Shown here: in pieces, positions 5,621 through 58,671 of the stretch
Layout of the letters: the number at the start of each line of letters is the position of its first letter
How positions within the stretch are numbered: position 1 is the first letter of the stretch
Assembly: GCA_004293365.1 (NCBI GenBank)
Contig: RDYN01000009.1
Span: forward strand, 62,001-126,000
Source: Oscillatoriales cyanobacterium
Lineage (GTDB): Bacteria > Cyanobacteriota > Cyanobacteriia > Cyanobacteriales > Microcoleaceae
Length of the DNA stretch: 64,000 nt
Direction of reading: 5' to 3'
The notes under the pieces: model-generated
What the model saw: only the letters and a program-made list of their open reading frames with translations
What the model was told of the DNA's origin: nothing
The model's database searches: none
Translations under genes and position numbers: made by a program

Positions 5621-7510
5621 ATGATCAAAAATACAACTGCATCAGCTCTAAAAGTTATTCCCCTCGGCGGGCTGCACGAAATCGGTAAAAACACTTGCGT
5701 GTTCGAGTACGGCGACGAAATAATTCTTTTAGATGCAGGTTTAGCTTTCCCCACAGATGGAATGCACGGTGTAAATATTGTCCTCCCAGACATGACTTAC
5801 CTGCGGGAAAACAGCCACAAAATTAAAGGTATGATCGTAACTCACGGTCACGAAGATCACATCGGTGGCATCCCCTATCACCTCAAACAATTTGAAATTC
5901 CCGTCATCTACGGCCCGCGTTTGGCGATGGCTTTGCTCGCCGGAAAATTGGAAGAAGCCGGAGTGTCTCACCGCACTGAATTGAGAACTGTTCGCCCCCG
6001 GGATACGGTAAGAATTGGCAAGAATTTCTTAGTCGAATACATTCGCAACACTCACTCGATGGCCGACAGTTTCACTGTGGCAATTCACACTCCCGTTGGA
6101 ATTATTATTCACACTGGAGACTTTAAAATTGACCACACTCCCGTAGACGGCGAGCATTTTGATTTGCAAAAGCTGGCGGAGTACGGCGAAAGAGGCGTGC
6201 TGTGCTTGATCAGCGATTCTACTAACTCGGAAGTTCCCGGTTTTACCGCTTCAGAACGTTCTGTCGCTCCGAATTTAGACAGAATTATCGCTCAAGCAAC
6301 GGGAAGAGTGATGGTGACGACTTTTGCTTCGTCGGTACACCGATTGCAAATTGTTTTGGAGTTGGCTAAGAAAAACAATCGGTATGTCGGAGTGGTGGGC
6401 CGCTCAATGCTGAACGTCATCGCTCACTGTCGCAATCTCGGCTACATTAAATGCGAAGACAGTCTTTTCAAACCGCTCAAAGAAATCCGCAATTTGGCAG
6501 ATGACAAGGTTTTGATTTTAACTACGGGTTCCCAAGGCGAACCGATGGCGGCGATGACTCGCATTGCTAACGGCGAACATCACGAAGTGAAAATTAGAAA
6601 CGGCGATACAGTCATTTTCTCGGCTAATCCGATTCCTGGAAATACGATCGCAGTGGTAAATACGATCGATAAACTGATGATGTTGGGAGCAAACGTGGTT
6701 TACGGCCGCGATAAAGGCATTCACGTTTCCGGGCACGGCTGTCAGGAAGACCAAAAGTTAATGATTAACATGACTCGTCCCAAGTTCTTCTTACCCGTAC
6801 ACGGGGAACACCGAATGCTGGTTCAGCACTCCAAGACGGCTCAAAGCATGGGCATTCCCGCGAGCAATATGGTAATTATTGACAACGGCGATGTCGTAGA
6901 ATTGACGGAAAATTCGATGCGACTCGGTACTAAAGTACCTTCAGGAATTGAATTAGTAGATGCTTCTCGATCGGGCGTTGTCAAAGCAAACGTCCTCAAA
7001 GAACGCCAGCAGTTAGCTGGAGACGGCGCGGTGACAGTAGCTGCGGCGTTGAATGCAGAAGGCAAATTGGTTGCTGCGCCGCAAATTCACTTGAAAGGTG
7101 TGGTAACATCAGCCGATCGCGCGCTGTTACAACAATCGATCGCTCAAACAATTGACACCGTGTTGAGCGATCGTTGGTCGGAGTTTGTCAGACCTTCTTC
7201 AACTTCCGAATCAGGAGTTGACGTAGACTGGGTAGGAGTACAAACCCAGATAGAACGAGCAATTGGGCGGGTGCTGCGCCGGGAACTTCAAAGCAATCCC
7301 ATGCTAGTATTCCTGATGCAAATTCCCGAAGGAGCATCATTTGTGAAATGGGAAACACCAGCAGTGACTCCTGGTTCCCTGGAAGCACCTAAGCTATTAG
7401 GCGGCCAATCATCCACACCGGCTCCAACACCAGCACCCGTTCCTGCTAATAAAGTAACAGGTCGTCGTCGCCCCCGGACAGCAGCCAAAGTTGCTTCCGT
7501 CGTTTCGTAG
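5621..7510 (+). CDS. rnj: Ribonuclease J
   Basis: Metallo-beta-lactamase/beta-CASP RNase that matures and degrades RNA, combining endonuclease and 5'-3' exonuclease activity. Zinc ligands are visible in HGHEDH at residues 75-80, followed by further histidines and an aspartate in RNTHSMADSF and HTGDFKID. The beta-CASP part holds FASSVHRLQ, and the C-terminal metal motif VHGEHRML is present. At 629 residues it is longer than Bacillus RNase J1 (about 555); the extra length is a basic, Pro/Ala-rich tail from about residue 590, common in cyanobacteria. ATG start at 5621 after AAGGAT. A likely terminator lies at 7541-7573. Confidence 0.95.
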   Translation: MIKNTTASALKVIPLGGLHEIGKNTCVFEYGDEIILLDAGLAFPTDGMHGVNIVLPDMTYLRENSHKIKGMIVTHGHEDHIGGIPYHLKQFEIPVIYGPRLAMALLAGKLEEAGVSHRTELRTVRPRDTVRIGKNFLVEYIRNTHSMADSFTVAIHTPVGIIIHTGDFKIDHTPVDGEHFDLQKLAEYGERGVLCLISDSTNSEVPGFTASERSVAPNLDRIIAQATGRVMVTTFASSVHRLQIVLELAKKNNRYVGVVGRSMLNVIAHCRNLGYIKCEDSLFKPLKEIRNLADDKVLILTTGSQGEPMAAMTRIANGEHHEVKIRNGDTVIFSANPIPGNTIAVVNTIDKLMMLGANVVYGRDKGIHVSGHGCQEDQKLMINMTRPKFFLPVHGEHRMLVQHSKTAQSMGIPASNMVIIDNGDVVELTENSMRLGTKVPSGIELVDASRSGVVKANVLKERQQLAGDGAVTVAAALNAEGKLVAAPQIHLKGVVTSADRALLQQSIAQTIDTVLSDRWSEFVRPSSTSESGVDVDWVGVQTQIERAIGRVLRRELQSNPMLVFLMQIPEGASFVKWETPAVTPGSLEAPKLLGGQSSTPAPTPAPVPANKVTGRRRPRTAAKVASVVS

Positions 7511-8017: not shown

Positions 8018-9316
8018 TTAAACCGAAGCTTGTTGCCATTCTAAGCGTTCGAGGGTGCGGGCGCGTTCGAGGGCACGCTCGAAGGCTTCCAGTTTTGGTT
8101 CGAGGGTGATGGGTTCGCCGATGTAGCCTTGAACTGCTTCCTGTGTTTTCAAGCCGTTGCCGGTGATGTAGGCGACGGTGGTTTCGTCGGGATTGATTTT
8201 ACCTGCTTCTACGAGTTTCTTCAAGACTGCGATCGTCGTGCCGCCTGCGGTTTCGGTGAAGATGCCTTCAGTTTCTGCTAGCAGTTTCATGCCTTCGATG
8301 ATTTCGGTATCGCTGACGGATTCGATGTTTCCGTTGGTTTTGCGGGCGATTTCTAAGGCGTACATACCGTCTGCTGGATTGCCGATCGCGATCGACTTAG
8401 CAATGGTATTCGGTTTGACCGGTGTCACGAAATCGCGGCCTTCGCGGTATGCGCTGGCGATCGGGGAACAACCGTCAGCTTGAGCGCCGCTGAATCGAAC
8501 TTTCTTCTCATCAACTAAACCGACTTCGATGAATTCATTAAATCCTTTGTAGATTTTTGTGAACAGAGAGCCGGAGGCAAGCGGGGCGACGATATGATCG
8601 GGCAATTGCCAGCCTAGCTGTTCGGCAACTTCGTAGCCGAGGGTTTTCGAGCCTTCGGAGTAGTAGGGGCGCAAGTTGATGTTGACAAATCCCCAGCCGT
8701 GTGTATTGGCGACTTCGCAGCAGAGGCGGTTAACTTGGTCGTAGTTGCCGTGAACTGCCATGACAGTTGGATTGTAAATCAGAGTGCCGAGGACTTTGCC
8801 AGCTTCTAAGTCTGAAGGGATGAAGACTACGCAGTCGAGTCCGGCGTGGGCTGCGATCGCAGCGGTGGAGTTAGCTAAGTTGCCAGTGCTGGCACAGGAT
8901 ACCGTGGTGAAACCCAATTCTCTCGCTCGGCTGAGGGCGACTGACACCACTCTGTCCTTAAAGCTCAGAGTGGGCATATTGACGGCATCGTTTTTAATAT
9001 AAAGATTTTTGAGACCGAGGCGGCGCGCCAAGCGGTGGGATTTTACTAAAGGAGTCATCCCCGTGCCGACATCGATGACGTTTTCTGTAGCGACTGGTAA
9101 AAATTCGCGGTAGCGCCAGATTGAGTTGGGGCCGGCTTGGATGGTTTGGCGAGTGACGCGGCGGCGGATAGCTTCGTAGTCGTACTTGACTTCTAGCGGG
9201 CCAAAACAGCAATCGCAGACGTGCTTGGCTTGGAGTTCGTACTCTTCGCCGCATTCTTTACACTTGAGGGCTGTGAAGGTTGCTGCTGTGGATTGTGTTC
9301 TGGTTGCCTGGGTCAT
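8018..9316 (-). CDS. thrC: Threonine synthase (PLP enzyme)
   Basis: Converts O-phosphohomoserine to threonine. The 432-residue protein carries the pyridoxal-phosphate lysine in LSFKDRVVS (Lys120) and a glycine-rich phosphate loop further on (PLASGSLF). The N-terminus has a zinc-ribbon-like pattern with Cys19, Cys22, Cys34 and Cys36/37 (CKECG...CDCC), as in many threonine synthases of this subgroup. ATG start at 9316. A ThiS/MoaD-like gene sits on each side on the same strand. Its substrate derives from aspartate semialdehyde, so it works downstream of asd, though not in the same operon. Confidence 0.92.
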   Translation of the reverse strand: MTQATRTQSTAATFTALKCKECGEEYELQAKHVCDCCFGPLEVKYDYEAIRRRVTRQTIQAGPNSIWRYREFLPVATENVIDVGTGMTPLVKSHRLARRLGLKNLYIKNDAVNMPTLSFKDRVVSVALSRARELGFTTVSCASTGNLANSTAAIAAHAGLDCVVFIPSDLEAGKVLGTLIYNPTVMAVHGNYDQVNRLCCEVANTHGWGFVNINLRPYYSEGSKTLGYEVAEQLGWQLPDHIVAPLASGSLFTKIYKGFNEFIEVGLVDEKKVRFSGAQADGCSPIASAYREGRDFVTPVKPNTIAKSIAIGNPADGMYALEIARKTNGNIESVSDTEIIEGMKLLAETEGIFTETAGGTTIAVLKKLVEAGKINPDETTVAYITGNGLKTQEAVQGYIGEPITLEPKLEAFERALERARTLERLEWQQASV

Positions 9317-52603: not shown

Positions 52604-53083
52604 ATGACATTTACTACTGCCGGTGCTTACGACCAAGGAAAAGTAGATATTCAGAGCTTGAGTGTAGACGACCAATTAGGTTTGCTGTGGTTTGTTTACA
52701 CCGAAATGGGCAAGTCAATCACGCCAGCGGCTCCCGGTGCTTCCGGTTCCGAAATTGCTCAGGGTTTGTTCGATCAAGTCAAGCCGCTGCCCCACGAGGA
52801 ACAACTGCAAGTAATGCGCGACATTGCCTCAAAAGCCAATACTGAAATCAGCCGGATGTACGGCTCGATGAGCCCGGAAACCAAGCTGGCTTTTTGGTAT
52901 TTCCTGGCAGTAGGAATGGATGAAGGAACAATTATTCCCGTCCCTCCCGACTATCAACTTCCCGAAGCTGGAAAAGCTTTATTAGGAAAGATTCAGGGCA
53001 TGGACTTTCAACAGCAAATTGATTTCCTGCGCGGTACAGTTTTAGAAATGGGTGCCGGGGCCGCTCCGGGCGCTGGCATTTAA
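52604..53083 (+). CDS. Helical carotenoid protein (OCP N-terminal domain homologue)
   Basis: A 159-residue stand-alone homologue of the orange carotenoid protein N-terminal domain; there is no C-terminal NTF2-like domain. ATG at 52604 follows GGAGG. The conserved carotenoid-tunnel aromatics are kept: LLWFVYTEMGKSI (OCP Trp41/Tyr44 region) and LAFWYFLAVGMDEGTIIPVPP (OCP Trp110 region). HCPs bind carotenoids; some quench singlet oxygen and some quench phycobilisomes. Which HCP clade this is cannot be settled by eye. A free C-terminal homologue (CTDH) is not in the window. Confidence 0.9.
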   Translation: MTFTTAGAYDQGKVDIQSLSVDDQLGLLWFVYTEMGKSITPAAPGASGSEIAQGLFDQVKPLPHEEQLQVMRDIASKANTEISRMYGSMSPETKLAFWYFLAVGMDEGTIIPVPPDYQLPEAGKALLGKIQGMDFQQQIDFLRGTVLEMGAGAAPGAGI

Positions 53084-53095
53084 TTTGAGTTGAGT

Positions 53096-53115
53096 AAGGT
53101 GCGCAGTGCGCACCT
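53096..53115. terminator. AGGTGCGCAGTGCGCACCT hairpin between converging genes
   Basis: A 9-bp perfect inverted repeat around one base lies between the stop codons of the carotenoid protein and the decarboxylase-like gene. Same family as 44476 and 54705. Confidence 0.6.
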
Positions 53116-53126
53116 ACAAATTCTAG

Positions 53127-53801
53127 CTAATAACTGAATTCAGCAGCTATGTTCCCCACAACTTCCGGCGCACCTGCAATTAAACGCATATCTTCGCAGC
53201 CAACTGTGAGCAATGGTTGACCTAAGTTTAAACTGGCAAAATGACTCTCTTCAGGTATTTCTACTTCGCCTTTAATCAAGCCGATGCGAGACTGGAACTC
53301 TCCTTTAAACATTAGCAAATTGCTGCGATCGGCGCTAAAAACATTTCCGCTCAAAGGTAGGGGAAATCCAAAACTTTGTTTGCTGTAATTGAGACTGCAC
53401 AGTTGCAGATTTCCTTGGCTAACTGTGACGCGGTAGCCTAGCGGTGAGGCTTTTAGTGAATCGCTGCCTTCCCAACTAAATTGAGCTAATTCTTTAGGAA
53501 GTCCCCAAATTTCGCGCCCGCCAGCTACTGAGTTAGGGTTGTCTACGTAGATGTGCGAAATCCAAGCGCCCCATTTTCCTGCATTACTGGCGATCGCGCT
53601 AACTACAATTAACTCATTGTACTCCATCACGGAACCCAGCCCGTAGGAGGATATATAAATGCCACCTAGCGTTTTTCCTGGCAATAAACAGACAATTTCT
53701 AACTCAGAGGGAACCAAGGGGCGCACTCGTGCTACATCTACCAATTGCAAAGTCTGAACAGCATAACCTTGCAGGCGCCAAGGAGCAGGTGAATATACCA
53801 T
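53127..53801 (-). CDS. Acetoacetate-decarboxylase-family protein
   Basis: A 224-residue protein of the ADC-like superfamily. The start is MVYSPAPWRLQGYAVQTLQLVDVARVRPLVP; the central GGREIWGLPKELAQFSW corresponds to the catalytic region of acetoacetate decarboxylase, with the Schiff-base lysine candidate in GLPKE. Cyanobacteria carry several such proteins with unknown substrates; true acetoacetate decarboxylation is not implied. It converges with the carotenoid-protein gene across a short GGTGCGCAGTGCGCACC hairpin at 53097-53113, which can terminate both. Confidence 0.82.
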   Translation of the reverse strand: MVYSPAPWRLQGYAVQTLQLVDVARVRPLVPSELEIVCLLPGKTLGGIYISSYGLGSVMEYNELIVVSAIASNAGKWGAWISHIYVDNPNSVAGGREIWGLPKELAQFSWEGSDSLKASPLGYRVTVSQGNLQLCSLNYSKQSFGFPLPLSGNVFSADRSNLLMFKGEFQSRIGLIKGEVEIPEESHFASLNLGQPLLTVGCEDMRLIAGAPEVVGNIAAEFSY

Positions 53802-54004
53802 TTTAAGTGATTTTAGATCTGATATTTTATATTTATTTTAGCTTAGGCTCTAAAACAGCAACAGGTTTTGGTATTTTTTCATAACATCCTAGTATATTCA
53901 CGCATAAGAAAGATTAATCTGCGAATAGCGAGCAATTAGTTGACATTTGAGCAAAAGTTAAATATCGTCTACTTAGTGAATATTTAGAAGGAACCTAAAC
54001 CTGT

Positions 54005-54667
54005 ATGCTGACATCTTACAAGCCAGATGTTTTCGATACTTTAGAGCATTTTTTTACGGCAAGAGACCTACTGGAACAAGCCCAAGACAACATGACCGAA
54101 CTCGGTGCTATCATCCGCAGTCACGGCTTGCAAAAACAGGTTGGTATCTGCTTGCTTCACAAACACTTTGACCTCTCGGATAACGAGAGGTTGGTTGAAG
54201 AGTTTGATGGCAACAATGCTTATGTTAAGCCAACCGCAGAATACGGCGATGCTATTCCTTATATGTGGAAGGTGGAACAAAATCAAGCATCAGGCGAATG
54301 GGTTTGGTTTCCCTTAGAATTTGTCCGCGTTACTGAAGCTGTGTCGGCAGCAGTTGAACGGTCAGAAGCTGTTGTCAATAACTCGGAATTCCTGAATGAA
54401 ATTGCGGGTAAACTGTCAGAATTGGGAATGACTGGAATGTTCGGAATCAGCATTTTGCACCGAGATGCAATTAAGGTTGCTGAGGGCGAAATTTTGGTGG
54501 AAAGTACAGACGACGAAGCCCGTGTCTTGACTCTTTCTTCGGTTCCTCGCCAAAATGTCGATCGCACAACTTTAACACAAACTCTCTGGCAGTTTCCCAA
54601 TGCTGAAGGGTTTGAGGTTGGGGCGATGTGTTCTCACTGCACTCACTGCACGCATTGCACTCATTAG
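54005..54667 (+). CDS. Duplicated-domain protein ending in four Cys-x-His triplets
   Basis: A 220-residue protein, start MLTSYKPDVFDTLEHFF with GAAGGAAC before it. It has an internal duplication: LGAIIRSHGLQKQVGICLLHKHFDL...ERLVEEF at about residues 33-62 and IAGKLSELGMTGMFGISILHRD...EILVEST at about 139-172. The last 12 residues are C-S-H then three C-T-H triplets (209-220), right at the end, after a Gly/Met linker. Such an ending is typical of a metal-binding tag or of a peptide that is modified after translation. An HxD...H oxygenase gene follows on the same strand. No named family that I recognise. Confidence 0.8.
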   Translation: MLTSYKPDVFDTLEHFFTARDLLEQAQDNMTELGAIIRSHGLQKQVGICLLHKHFDLSDNERLVEEFDGNNAYVKPTAEYGDAIPYMWKVEQNQASGEWVWFPLEFVRVTEAVSAAVERSEAVVNNSEFLNEIAGKLSELGMTGMFGISILHRDAIKVAEGEILVESTDDEARVLTLSSVPRQNVDRTTLTQTLWQFPNAEGFEVGAMCSHCTHCTHCTH

Positions 54668-54699
54668 GCAAGATTGCTAAAGTGTAAAAATTAGTATAT

Positions 54700-54812
54700 A
54701 TGTAGGGTGCGCACTGCGCACCTTACCGCTATAAGTAGCAAGTCAAACTACTTTTTGCCTAAGTCCTCAAACAGAGAAGAAAGGACTAAATTCCTTACTA
54801 CGAACGGGTTTT
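54700..54812. repeat. Gap with GGTGCGCA hairpin and a degenerate GTAGTGAGGACT copy
   Basis: GTAGGGTGCGCACTGCGCACC at 54702-54722 is a hairpin of the GGTGCGCA family; 54766-54808 resembles the GTAGTGAGGACT family with several changes. The hairpin follows the Cys-His gene by 35 bp and could limit read-through into the oxygenase gene. Confidence 0.6.
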
Positions 54813-54841
54813 TAGTAAGTGCGATTGAGCAATATTAAATA

Positions 54842-55693
54842 ATGTGCAATCTCCGTCAAAGTATAGTAATTTATCGCTGTCAAAATCGGGAGTTAGAAAC
54901 TACAAAAGAGTGCACAATTCCCCGAGTGTGGCTGAGTTCGGGTACGCAGCTAGCTGTTGACACTTCGCCCGATCGCCTTCAGTATTGTGAAGGTGCTTTT
55001 ATGCCGAAAGAACCTTGGAGGGAACCGACGCCCGCAGAGTCAACCCTGCTTTGGGCTGATGAACCGCCGCCCCGCTATTCGGGTGTCGGAATTGTGCGTT
55101 TACCTGCGGATGTTTTGGCTTTGTTGGCTGCTTCCGGTATCCCTTCGCTAACCACTCCCCTACAGGTGGCTGAGTTTAAATCTCAGGAAAAATGCGGACA
55201 GATACTCGATCGACTAATTGACTATTTTAAGCCTTTTTGTCTGTCGGATTCGCCGCCAGTTATCAGCGGTATGGGAGGCCGACAGCCGGGATTGAGTACG
55301 GCGACAATTGATAACAAACGCGGTTGTCGCAACGGTTTGCATACTGATAGTTGGGACAATCTGCCGCTGGCTAAAAAGCAAGAGGCTACTAATCGGATTT
55401 GCGTGAATTTAGGGCGGGATAGCCGTTATTTTTTGTTTGTCAATTTGACTGAGATGGACATTTTTGAAATGCTGGGAGGTTCTGATTCCGATGTTGGGAA
55501 ACCTTGGACGCGACAGTTAACTTATGAGTTTATGCAGCGCTATGGGGAATATCCGGTGGTGAAGCTGAGAATTGCACCGGGCGAGGCTTATATTGCACCG
55601 ACTGAAAATATGATTCACGATGCTTCTACGGCAGATATGAAGCATTTGGATGTTAAGGTGATGATGCGCGGTTATTACAGGATTCCAGCATGA
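54842..55693 (+). CDS. Probable Fe(II)/2-oxoglutarate-type oxygenase
   Basis: A 283-residue protein. NGLHTDSWDN supplies a His167-x-Asp169 metal pair, ENMIHDAST the distal His259, and VMMRGYYR the Arg276 that would bind 2-oxoglutarate, the order expected for this fold. The start region (MCNLRQSIVIYRCQNRELETTKECTI) is unusual, and GVGIVRLPADVLALLAASGIP is helical. I assign the family by motif only; overall similarity to known oxygenases was not verified. It follows the Cys-His protein gene by 174 bp and precedes a sulfotransferase by 112 bp, all on the plus strand, so a shared pathway is likely. Confidence 0.65.
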   Translation: MCNLRQSIVIYRCQNRELETTKECTIPRVWLSSGTQLAVDTSPDRLQYCEGAFMPKEPWREPTPAESTLLWADEPPPRYSGVGIVRLPADVLALLAASGIPSLTTPLQVAEFKSQEKCGQILDRLIDYFKPFCLSDSPPVISGMGGRQPGLSTATIDNKRGCRNGLHTDSWDNLPLAKKQEATNRICVNLGRDSRYFLFVNLTEMDIFEMLGGSDSDVGKPWTRQLTYEFMQRYGEYPVVKLRIAPGEAYIAPTENMIHDASTADMKHLDVKVMMRGYYRIPA

Positions 55694-55805
55694 GTTTTGC
55701 CCCAATTTTACACCTACCCAAAACAATGGGGGAAAATTGCATATTTCGGGAGATGCTCAAAGCCTACCCCACAATAATTTGATTGTTTATTAAAATACAA
55801 TTTAA

Positions 55806-56981
55806 ATGCAGAATAGCTTCAACGATCGCGAAAAATTGCAACAGTCGATCGCGCTTTACGAAAATGCGATCGTCCAAAATCCCAATTCGCCCTCAGCTTA
55901 CCACGATTTAGGAAAAGCCCTGCAACAAAACGGGCAAATTGCCGCAGCCGTCGCCTGTCACCAAAAAGCCATTCTCCTGCAACCAAACTTTACCGCCGCT
56001 TACTTCCCATTAATGTACGCGCCCCTCCCCAAAGATTCTCCTCTCATTGACGGTTTGGTGGCTCTTTACCGCGAAGTTATCGAGATTTTGCCAAATTTCC
56101 CCTTAGCCTACATTAACTTGGCTGTGGCGCTCAGCAAGCAGGGAAAAATCCAGGAGTCGAGATCCCTTTTTCAAACCGCAGTCCGCTTGCAAACTGTAGC
56201 ATCTCGCCCGGAATTGTCTCAAGTAGAATGGAATTCAACCCAATTGCGCGAACCCGATTTCATCATCATCGGTTCTCCGAGGTGCGGCACAACTTCTCTG
56301 TACAAATATATCACTGCACACCCTCAGATTTTACCCGCAGCCAATAAAGAAATCTGTTTCTTTTCCGAACATTTCAACAAAGGATTAGCTTGGTATCAAG
56401 CGCACTTTCCCCCGCCAATAGACGCGCACCATTTTTTGACAGGAGAAGCAACTCCGACTTATCTGACTCACCCCCTAGCTGCGTCAAGATTGCACGGATG
56501 TTTGCCAAAAATCAAGCTGATTGCGATTTTGCGAAATCCTGTCGTTCGCGCTTTTTCGCACTATCAAATGCTGGTGAGGCGCGGTACGGAATGCAGGACG
56601 TTTGAAAAGGCGATCGGTGCCGAGTTGCAATTGCTCGCAGGTGCTACCGAAACAAGTTTAGCAGATAAAAGTTATTGGAAAGATTGTCACTACATTTACA
56701 AAAGTCTTTATGCTTGCAGCCTCAAACAGTGGATGAATCTTTTTCCCAGGGAACAGTTTTTAATATTGCAGAGTGAAGAATTTTATACAAATCCGGCGGC
56801 GACACTAAAACAAGTTTTTGATTTTTTAGATTTGCCAGATTATCAACTCAGCGATTACAAACAATATAACAGTGGAAATTATCAGCCTGCGGATGATGTT
56901 GTCTGTCAGCGACTGCGCCAGTATTTTCAGCCGCACAATCTAGAATTAGCCGAATATTTGAACAGGGAATTTAGCTGGTAA
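55806..56981 (+). CDS. TPR-sulfotransferase fusion
   Basis: A 391-residue protein. Residues 1-130 are TPR-like repeats (AYHDLGKALQQNGQIAAAVACHQKAI, AYINLAVALSKQGKIQESRSLFQ). The sulfotransferase domain has the 5'-PAPS loop GSPRCGTTSLY at 156-166 and the 3'-phosphate motif ILRNPVVRAFSHYQ at 241-254. The domain transfers sulfate from PAPS to a hydroxyl or amine of a sugar, lipid or protein tyrosine. It resembles sulfotransferases of the heparan-sulfate type found in cyanobacterial polysaccharide clusters. ATG at 55806. The TPR part suggests a protein or polymer partner. Confidence 0.88.
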   Translation: MQNSFNDREKLQQSIALYENAIVQNPNSPSAYHDLGKALQQNGQIAAAVACHQKAILLQPNFTAAYFPLMYAPLPKDSPLIDGLVALYREVIEILPNFPLAYINLAVALSKQGKIQESRSLFQTAVRLQTVASRPELSQVEWNSTQLREPDFIIIGSPRCGTTSLYKYITAHPQILPAANKEICFFSEHFNKGLAWYQAHFPPPIDAHHFLTGEATPTYLTHPLAASRLHGCLPKIKLIAILRNPVVRAFSHYQMLVRRGTECRTFEKAIGAELQLLAGATETSLADKSYWKDCHYIYKSLYACSLKQWMNLFPREQFLILQSEEFYTNPAATLKQVFDFLDLPDYQLSDYKQYNSGNYQPADDVVCQRLRQYFQPHNLELAEYLNREFSW

Positions 56982-57189
56982 AAACTAGAGGAATTATATC
57001 AAATCACTTCACTTCAGTCCAGTCCGCCAGGGGTTTAAACCCCTGGCTAATAGCTAAAGTCCTCTAAAGAGGACTAATCAGTTGACAATTCTTCTTCTCA
57101 GTCCTCATAGCGAGGACTTTAGCTTTGAGGCAGGGGTTTCAACCCCTGCCGGACTATCCGCGTTCATCTGCGGTTAAAAAAATCCAAAC
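56982..57189. repeat. Foldback repeat between converging genes
   Basis: CAGTCCGCCAGGGGTTTAAACCCC at about 57016-57042 pairs imperfectly with GGGGTTTCAACCCCTGCCGGACT at 57125-57148, and GTCCTCTAAAGAGGAC at 57059-57074 is a small palindrome. The region can form one long stem and several short ones. It lies between the sulfotransferase (plus) and SLH protein (minus) genes. Confidence 0.7.
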
Positions 57190-58671
57190 CTACTTACTCG
57201 CATAACCCGTGCTCACCAAAAACTCGCGCAACTTCCCAAAGAATTGAGTGCGATCGCGCCCTTGATAAACCCCCTCCAATAACCGCCAACCTTCCGCCTC
57301 CTGGCCCGCCACATACTTGCTCGCCATGAAAGCCGCCAACACCCCTTTCACCTCTGCATCTTCGCTCGATCGCTTCCGAGATTCCAGCCACAACTCAGCA
57401 CCATTCGTGTATACTTCCACGAGATACTGCTTGGTAACATCTTCCATTTTACCTGGGCGGTACTGCCAAATTTGCAGCGGCAACCGAGAATCCGCATAAT
57501 TTGTAAAAGCCTCCGCAAATCGCCCGTCTAGACTCTTGAACTCCGGGATATCATTTTTGCCAAAATCGACAATTTCGTAGCTCACATTGCCCCAGAAATG
57601 CTTGATGTGAGTGTATTTCTTCGCGGCTGAGTCGTAGCGGTAAATAAACGAATAATTGCAGCAGCGGACGCCGCTGTTAATTGAGACTAAATCTGCCAGC
57701 ACTTCCGGTTCCTTGTCGCCGTCCAAATCGCGGATTCGCACCGATAACAAACGCCCTTCCGATACTTCCTCGCTGGCTTTTTTGTCGGGATTGTCTGCTA
57801 GAGAACGAGTCGGAATCAGCACTGGTTCTTCTAATAAACTTTGACCGTTGCGGATGATTTTGATGCGGATATTTTTAGCATTTTCTGCTTCTTTGACAAA
57901 AGAAACTTCTGCCAGAACTTTCTCCGACTCCGAGATTTCTGTGGTTCTCGGCGGGCCGATATCCGGGGGAACTTGCGCGATGTATTGCGAGGGAACTAAG
58001 GCTGTTTTGCCGGGTTTGGCGATCGCCTGACACAGAAAAGTTGCTACTTCGGCGCGAGTAGCATTGCGTGTCGGTTCTAGCTGTTTGACGGCGGGATAGT
58101 TGACCACAAGTTGTTTTTCGGCGGCGGCGGCGATCGCATTTCTGGCCAATTCGGGAATGTCTCGCGCATCTTCAAAAGTCGCATTCAAAATCTCAGGCGC
58201 TGAACCAGCAGGCGTATATTTCAAGCCGCTGCTTAGGGCTACCAAAACCTGCCAGCGGGGAATGTTCAAAGTCGCGTTAAAAATACTGCCGCTGTATCCG
58301 GATAAAAAACCCGTCTGATAAGCTTCTCGAATTGGTTTATAACCCCAGTAGTTCGTGGGAATATCTGCAAAGTCGATCGGATTGCGGACGGTTTTTGCAT
58401 CGGGAAAAGCCCTCCGCAGCATCGCCGCAAACTCAGCGCGGCTGACGGGGCGGTTCGGGCGAAAAGTGCCGTCTTCGTAGTAGCCGCTGATGATTTTTTT
58501 CTCGGCTAATTCTTCTATGCAGGCTTGGGCCCAATGGTCTTTAACATCTTTAAATTTGGCTTCCGCAAATGCCGGCGCTACATTCAGGTCTGGAAATACT
58601 AAATTGCCGATGATTATCCCCAGGGCTACCACTAAAGCGATGACAGCTTGACGTTTGTGCGATCGAACCAT
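57190..58671 (-). CDS. SLH-domain surface protein
   Basis: A 493-residue exported protein. Signal peptide at 1-36 (QAVIALVVALGIIIGNLVFPDLNVAPAFA). Three S-layer homology domains follow: KFKDVKDHWAQACIEELAEKKIISG (about 38-95), PIDFADIPTNYWGYKPIREAY (about 98-155) and ATFEDARDIPELARNAIAAAAEKQLVV (about 165-220). SLH domains bind cell-wall polymers. The C-terminal half (AEVSFVKEAENAKNIRIKIIRNGQ; RDLDGDKEPEVLADL, an EF-hand-like Ca loop) is not a porin barrel, so it is an SLH-tethered lumenal or periplasmic protein of unknown task. Confidence 0.9.
   Translation of the reverse strand: MVRSHKRQAVIALVVALGIIIGNLVFPDLNVAPAFAEAKFKDVKDHWAQACIEELAEKKIISGYYEDGTFRPNRPVSRAEFAAMLRRAFPDAKTVRNPIDFADIPTNYWGYKPIREAYQTGFLSGYSGSIFNATLNIPRWQVLVALSSGLKYTPAGSAPEILNATFEDARDIPELARNAIAAAAEKQLVVNYPAVKQLEPTRNATRAEVATFLCQAIAKPGKTALVPSQYIAQVPPDIGPPRTTEISESEKVLAEVSFVKEAENAKNIRIKIIRNGQSLLEEPVLIPTRSLADNPDKKASEEVSEGRLLSVRIRDLDGDKEPEVLADLVSINSGVRCCNYSFIYRYDSAAKKYTHIKHFWGNVSYEIVDFGKNDIPEFKSLDGRFAEAFTNYADSRLPLQIWQYRPGKMEDVTKQYLVEVYTNGAELWLESRKRSSEDAEVKGVLAAFMASKYVAGQEAEGWRLLEGVYQGRDRTQFFGKLREFLVSTGYASK

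Follow-up and report, generated by a model that had tools for sequence, protein, structure and literature searches.

A 64,000-nt stretch of the Microcoleus-like cyanobacterium G000 (contig RDYN01000009.1; hereafter the window) carries three genes, P1, P2 and P3, whose strand, order and coordinates are exactly those given in an earlier note on this DNA (Table 1). P1 encodes a protein ending in Cys-x-His (CxH) triplets, P2 a predicted iron-dependent oxygenase, and P3 a protein combining tetratricopeptide repeats (TPR) with a sulfotransferase domain of the 3′-phosphoadenosine 5′-phosphosulfate (PAPS) type. Here, we focused on whether the P1 tail may be the substrate of the two neighbouring enzymes.

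Table 1. Features of the P1-P2-P3 locus, in window positions
Feature	Position	Strand	Description
P1	54005..54667	+	220 aa; two 'LLHxHF' domain copies and the CxH tail; proposed precursor/substrate
P1 domain 1	54062..54328	+	approximately residues 20-108; HKHF motif; matched by single-domain relatives
P1 domain 2	54362..54628	+	approximately residues 120-208; HRD replaces HxHF; EGFEVGAM linker at the end
P1 C-terminal tail, CSH-CTH-CTH-CTH	54629..54664	+	proposed core / metal site
P2	54842..55693	+	predicted MicC-like Fe(II)/alpha-ketoglutarate oxygenase; match to PDB 9vkm_A
P2 putative active-site codons	H167 55340-55342; D169 55346-55348; H259 55616-55618; R276 55667-55669	+	
P3	55806..56981	+	TPR and PAPS-type sulfotransferase (Pfam)
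Promoter-like hexamers, TTGACA-17-TATCGT	53940..53968	+	5′ of P1; consensus match only

The end of P1 is exactly the four-triplet string that the earlier note had read there, CSHCTHCTHCTH. A DNA pattern for two triplets occurred three times in the window, each time inside the P1 tail, against 0.13 occurrences expected from shuffles. We compared ten distinct P1 orthologues (the window, L008, L009, L010, L011, L044, L045, L046, L085 and L098; L008 and L009 are the same contigs as L002 and L003 and were used in the codon comparison), which share 79-98% identity inside the bacterial family, and 58% with the protein of L098. Their 52 triplets carry Thr (35), Ser (10), Gly (5) or Asp (2) as the middle residue, and both Asp-centred triplets come from G583, a genome without detected P2. 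The terminal run consists of four or five triplets. In L011 (Oscillatoriales USR001), P1 reaches 320 residues and 14 triplets in total, as a unit of about 20 residues (SPTAxxFEVEVxGLCGHCTH), made of a linker and CGHCTH, is repeated and the array is followed by CSHCTHCTHCTH; these repeats are reminiscent of multi-core precursors. The N-terminal part was conserved as triplet number varied (4, 5 or 14), which bore out a check proposed in the earlier note and is the pattern of conserved leader and variable or repeated core seen in precursors of ribosomally synthesized and post-translationally modified peptides (RiPPs). Moreover, when four triplets were aligned in each of five disjoint orthologue pairs, their Cys and His codons (8 per pair) showed nine synonymous and no non-synonymous differences, indicating that the tail is selected as protein and is under purifying selection.

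In the phylum sample, a CxHCxHCxH DNA pattern was found at 38 places in 21 of 386 genomes. Among the 30 places that were extracted and translated, an open frame of more than 200 residues ended in this way solely in G000, G007 and G176, in their P1 orthologues. A separate observation, made solely through the CxH DNA pattern, is an open frame at L055 (genome G394, C93:11694) with a Cys/Asp/His-rich repeat (CDH, CGH) directly before a CFIATAVYGT stretch. A literature search with CTHCTHCTH-type strings returned nothing relevant.

P1 as a whole matched no family in Pfam, NCBIfam or PHROGs and no PDB sequence. The earlier note had described a duplicated N-terminal domain, for which the two halves were compared directly: BLASTP found no match between them, and hhalign of the half-profiles returned an E of 0.001 over 45 columns with a probability of just 22%. 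The duplication is better backed by single-domain relatives matching either half, with a Pseudomonas protein aligning to residues 13-79, a Planococcus protein to residues 146-210, and that of G023 to both 2-77 and 130-216. Of the seven single-domain relatives aligned, five are on plasmids, none of them one of the five records in which a P2 relative was seen, and two are in G023 and G438, where a P2 relative was sought and not found. An AlphaFold model of P1 from five sequences reached a pLDDT of only 41. In the P1 profile used for the phylum, PDB-sequence and family searches, the rows of L002-L004 were shifted by one codon; those loci were still recovered in full length where searched. A mobile or phage origin was also considered and rejected, as P1 had no phage match, P1 and P2 had no relatives in viral contigs, and neither matched PHROGs.

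We then examined the distribution of the three genes in samples of genomes from the family, genus, phylum and class. Full-length P1 was found in 9 of the 61 family genomes, G023 and G438 giving only weak single-domain matches. Orthologous P2 (61-94% identical to that of the window) occurred in the same nine genomes and in none of the 52 others, so that the co-occurrence of CxH-tail protein and oxygenase, a test suggested by the earlier note, was complete within the family sample; the only P2 relatives in those 52 genomes, in G025 and G436 (34-36%), are in radical S-adenosylmethionine (SAM) clusters. P3 had orthologues (66-93% for the sulfotransferase domain) in each of the eight remaining P1 genomes, and the other 51 yielded none, the best match outside the P1 genomes being 52% among the matches listed for 60 family genomes. 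In 9/9 genomes, P1, P2 and P3 lie side by side on the same strand in constant order; 66 to 680 nt separate P1 from P2, and P2 and P3 overlap at their start and stop codons in 6/9. P1 is patchily distributed, being present in 6/29 genomes of the same genus, 3/386 of the phylum sample, 2/291 of the class sample (domain-profile search) and 2/42 of the family of G583. Its closest named bearers are Oscillatoriales and Microcoleus metagenome-assembled genomes (97-98%).

P2 had no Pfam or NCBIfam match above cut-off. It aligned over residues 27-279 with PDB 9vkm_A (E 8e-31), which its depositors named alpha-ketoglutarate-dependent non-heme iron oxygenase MicC, and by this alignment P2 is a relative of a solved alpha-ketoglutarate oxygenase; a literature search found no publication on MicC or PDB 9vkm. 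The HxD...H pattern pointed out earlier (H167, D169 and H259) is kept in all 23 aligned sequences, window included, and R276, the expected 2-oxoglutarate-binding Arg, in 17 of them. P2 thus has the facial triad and distal Arg of Fe(II)/2-oxoglutarate oxygenases and belongs by homology to the MicC family. Its AlphaFold model from five sequences reached a pLDDT of only 32.

Thirteen distinct loci encode P2-family proteins without P1 (L036-L043, L087, L088, L016, L017 and L018; L015 and L039 are one plasmid, and a second Methylocystis parvus record, H14, was counted together with H13). A radical-SAM/SPASM gene was present in ten of them, within 2.3 kb or fused: it is fused to the oxygenase in L040 (two genes), adjoins it in L038, L039, L041, L042, L043 and L018, and is one gene away in L088 and two genes away in L036 and L037. 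L016, L017 and L087 have none. A scan for CxxxCxxC motifs concurred, being positive in those ten loci and in 0/9 P1-P2-P3 loci. The radical-SAM genes matched GrrM/OscB above cut-off in L038, L039 and L043, and that of L018 is so annotated; those of L036, L037 and L088 are YhhB/FxsB-like below cut-off, and those of L040, L041 and L042 fall below all cut-offs. Short open reading frames (ORFs) that resemble precursors, without a Pfam match, are present in several of these loci, and L040 contains a Nif11 leader. The radical-SAM/SPASM genes in 10/13 loci indicate that the kin of P2 live in RiPP clusters, and P1, which adjoins P2 in all nine genomes, is placed as a precursor gene beside a tailoring enzyme of a RiPP family would be. 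In an unrooted tree of the P2 family, with a long-branch warning for L018, L017, L043 and others, the P1-linked oxygenases formed one clade (support 99/99). We infer that the switch ran from a radical-SAM-cluster oxygenase to the P1 cassette.

Several loci of the P2 family deserve mention on their own account. L040 (6175-10544, minus strand; genome G336) holds two neighbouring genes, both encoding a radical-SAM/SPASM domain joined to a P2-type oxygenase; a Nif11-leader peptide gene lies close by, as do ORFs that by eye look transporter-like, and the locus is possibly an undescribed RiPP cluster. A plasmid of Streptomyces sp. NBC_01454 carries, 5′ of an orphan P2-family oxygenase, an unannotated 42-aa ORF (L016:6546-6671, plus strand) encoding an acidic leader-like stretch, GGG and an end rich in His (VGHHQTHGHATAD); it is a candidate precursor, and a search of other plasmids found no homologue. 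On a Methylocystis parvus plasmid (L017:6821-7834, plus strand), a diverged P2-family protein lies between TonB-receptor/ABC substrate-binding genes and an iron ABC transporter, and a gene upstream is annotated as nitrogenase component 1. Finally, a gene with a product that begins like MNLKE.L..AD.IVF..TGQHLD.LQ (about 460 aa where complete) recurs in L036, L037, L088, L092, L093 and L011, adjoining radical-SAM clusters and single-domain P1 relatives; it possibly represents just a common cyanobacterial family.

P3 proved to be the TPR-sulfotransferase that the earlier note had named, with TPR models matched above cut-off and scores of 56.1 for Sulfotransfer_1 and 60.9 for Sulfotransfer_3 (cut-offs 22 and 27), as in PAPS sulfotransferases. 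The best match of its sulfotransferase half was heparan sulfate 3-O-sulfotransferase 3A1 (E 8e-26).

We propose that P1-P2-P3 is a three-gene cassette that would make a modified C-terminal tail. P1, a duplicated and probably folded protein, would present the run of Cys-(Thr/Ser/Gly)-His triplets; P2, whose kin lie in cyanobacterial radical-SAM RiPP clusters, would then oxidise triplet residues, by hydroxylation or bond formation, and P3 would subsequently add sulfate to a Thr/Ser hydroxyl or to a hydroxyl made by P2. The product would be a RiPP-like, sulfated Cys/His polydentate, probably binding a soft metal. Modification of the tail is the best reading because of the linkage of the genes and the company kept by the relatives of P2, and we give oxidation by P2 and sulfation by P3 to a RiPP-like, probably metal-binding product an even chance of being right. 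Thr or Ser in the middle of 45 of the 52 triplets fits what a sulfotransferase would need, and this residue choice beside a sulfotransferase gene suggests O-sulfation of the tail. The chemistry of P2 may be hydroxylation or, by analogy with the tyrosinase thioether, the joining of Cys to His.

If the tail is modified, the cassette would be a RiPP-like system without a radical-SAM maturase, built on a large leader that matches no library searched, and its Cys-Thr-His units would probably undergo both iron-dependent oxidation and sulfation. The cassette would also provide a substrate for MicC-type oxygenases, for which we found no published reaction, and a three-gene system for new Cys/His cross-linking or metal-binding chemistry. 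No description of such a system was found in titles and abstract openings of the literature. A bolder and unlikely version pictures the tail as a tandem array of Cys-Thr-His tripeptides. The oxygenase would link Cys to His (by thioether, thiohistidine-like bonds) or hydroxylate His, and the sulfotransferase would sulfate the central Thr/Ser. Such a modified peptide would represent a novel class, tuned to a soft metal and borne on a new type of leader, folded and duplicated, and it would have evolved when a radical-SAM-cluster oxygenase was grafted onto an older metal-binding tail. Under that version, the Asp-centred triplets of the oxygenase-less G583 would mimic the charge of sulfate.

Several observations weigh against modification of the tail by P2 and P3. 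Were it a leader, P1 would be a large and well-conserved one; five triplets are Gly-centred. The solved sulfotransferases nearest to P3 act on heparan sulfate, and TPR-sulfotransferase relatives are widespread, with a match in 59/60 genomes. None of the 16 window products scanned around P1 belonged to a recognisable peptidase, transporter or radical-SAM family; the flanks of the other P1-P2-P3 loci were inspected by eye, and peptidase or export genes may act from elsewhere. Moreover, 7/7 aligned single-domain relatives carry at least two Cys in their last 35 residues, followed in 5/7 by at least two His. Because of these C-terminal Cys pairs, mostly accompanied by His, metal binding may be ancestral, and a metal-binding tail may be older than its link with the oxygenase, to which the Cys/His-rich C-termini of relatives without a triplet run also point.

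Tails also occur without the oxygenase. G583, from another order (locus L098), encodes a P1 with five triplets and the end CDHCTHCTHCTHCDH. No P2 match was found there at E up to 10; a P2 profile search of this genome gave at best a 51-residue stretch with a stop (E 0.06), against 2e-153 for the positive control G427. A search of the locus found no P3 beside P1, only a 19-residue stretch like the start of P3 (E 0.006). In L098, P1 and a short TPR-like fragment are flanked by direct repeats of 109 nt (7303-7411 and 8307-8415; 85% alike), as though an insertion or recombination had involved this segment. Either the cassette became disrupted once it had been acquired, or the tail can function with no oxygenase. 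G646, a genome of the same family as G583 and 87% complete, encodes a two-domain P1 homologue that ends in CCHQHGPTCSGDKH, and no P2 was detected in it. The earlier note had seen in this gene order that of a RiPP or of a metal-binding tag, and had inferred an oxygenase acting on the tail. This interpretation is partly supported, by the homology to MicC, the radical-SAM kin, the co-occurrence in nine genomes and the varying repeat number behind a conserved N-terminal part, and G583 goes against it; the oxygenase may act on the tail. The same note had held that tails found routinely without the oxygenase would refute its reading; this occurred once with a triplet run, in G583, and not routinely.

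The main rival explanation, which we rate as possible but somewhat unlikely, is that the tail is a plain, unmodified tag for Zn, Cu or Ni in an old family with Cys/His tails, and that P2 and P3 act on another molecule and share the locus merely as a cassette. The tails of the single-domain relatives and the two genomes with a tailed P1 and no detected P2, G583 and G646, favour such a tag, whereas the strict co-occurrence and adjacency of the three orthologues in nine genomes, and a P2 family found mainly in peptide-modifying clusters, argue against it. Alternatively, P1 might be a partner of P2, for example a scaffold or iron-delivery protein whose Cys/His tail hands metal over, with the true substrate elsewhere. 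This we regard as quite improbable: the size and conservation of P1, its Cys/His tail and its strict linkage to P2 agree with it, but no P1 was found in the genomes of distant P2 relatives in the family and phylum samples, except for the cassette-bearing G427, the expansion to 14 triplets looks like substrate multiplication, and G583 keeps P1 without P2. Least of all do we credit the idea that expansion of a DNA repeat produced the tail as a side effect of little functional value. In its favour, the number of triplets differs between orthologues, simple repeats elsewhere contain CxH-like DNA patterns, and some genomes have more of a reversed control pattern than of the CxH one (24 places against 3 in G000). 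The idea is largely refuted by the codon pattern described above, which also led us to discard chance or a simple DNA repeat as the source of the tail, and by a tail kept in another order at 58% identity.

As for the surroundings of the cassette, a gene for an orange-carotenoid-protein N-terminal domain and an acetoacetate-decarboxylase-like gene lie 5′ of P1. Ten further products between 44.5 and 63.3 kb of the window include a class II tRNA synthetase, a polysaccharide deacetylase, DUF433 and DUF5615; four have no family above cut-off, and none of the ten belongs to a peptide-tailoring family. Promoter-like sites such as the one 5′ of P1 numbered 8 in the region, against 4.9 (sd 2.1) expected in shuffles, and Rfam gave no match in window positions 53000-57500. 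We also observed a 17-nt perfect palindrome, GGTGCGCANTGCGCACC, at 53098-53114 beside the decarboxylase-like gene and at 54706-54722 between P1 and P2, of which shuffles predict none; it is possibly a small dispersed repeat.

The proposed modification of the P1 tail invites comparison with known systems. Of the MicC-type oxygenases in radical-SAM RiPP clusters, with kin beside GrrM/OscB and YhhB/FxsB-like cyclophane maturases, MicC aligns with P2 over residues 27-279 with the HxD...H pattern kept, and the relatives of P2 lie near peptide maturases. In contrast, radical-SAM genes are absent from the P1 loci, P2 and its P1-linked orthologues group in a separate clade, and a 220-aa protein with a Cys/His tail would be the substrate. 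The mark of cyclophane RiPPs (GrrM/OscB, YhhB, FxsB) was absent, as no CxxxCxxC was found in ORFs of at least 80 aa in the window and the eight other P1-P2-P3 loci (13-17 kb each). Methanobactin (mbn) clusters, as described in PMC10167746, join a core that contains Cys to an iron oxidative enzyme and to MbnS, a putative sulfotransferase. The P1 cassette also pairs a Cys-containing tail with a predicted iron oxidative enzyme and a sulfotransferase, but its oxygenase is of another family, its tail is C-x-H and its leader would be a large domain; no mbnB/mbnC, TonB-receptor or MATE-exporter family was found among the 16 window products scanned.

Proteusins and Nif11-type RiPPs have long, protein-derived leaders. 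P1 resembles them in its large conserved N-terminal part, its short variable C-terminal part and the adjoining tailoring genes, whereas it matches neither Nif11 nor any other Pfam or NCBIfam model, and neither a cleavage site nor, among the 16 window products, an exporter was identified. The thioether tripeptide of N. crassa tyrosinase is Cys-Thr-His. In tyrosinase and molluscan haemocyanin, the Cys S-gamma is bonded to the imidazole C2 of His at a copper site, according to PMC11608171 and PMC8672867, the latter citing Lerch 1982. That thioether self-forms at the copper site, whereas such a bond in the P1 tail would be hypothetical; P1 did not match the tyrosinase model of Pfam, and a literature search on tyrosinase residue numbers gave no match. 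Taken together, since the enzymes that define the cyclophane and methanobactin classes were sought around P1 and not found, we suggest that P1 should be called RiPP-like and placed outside both classes.

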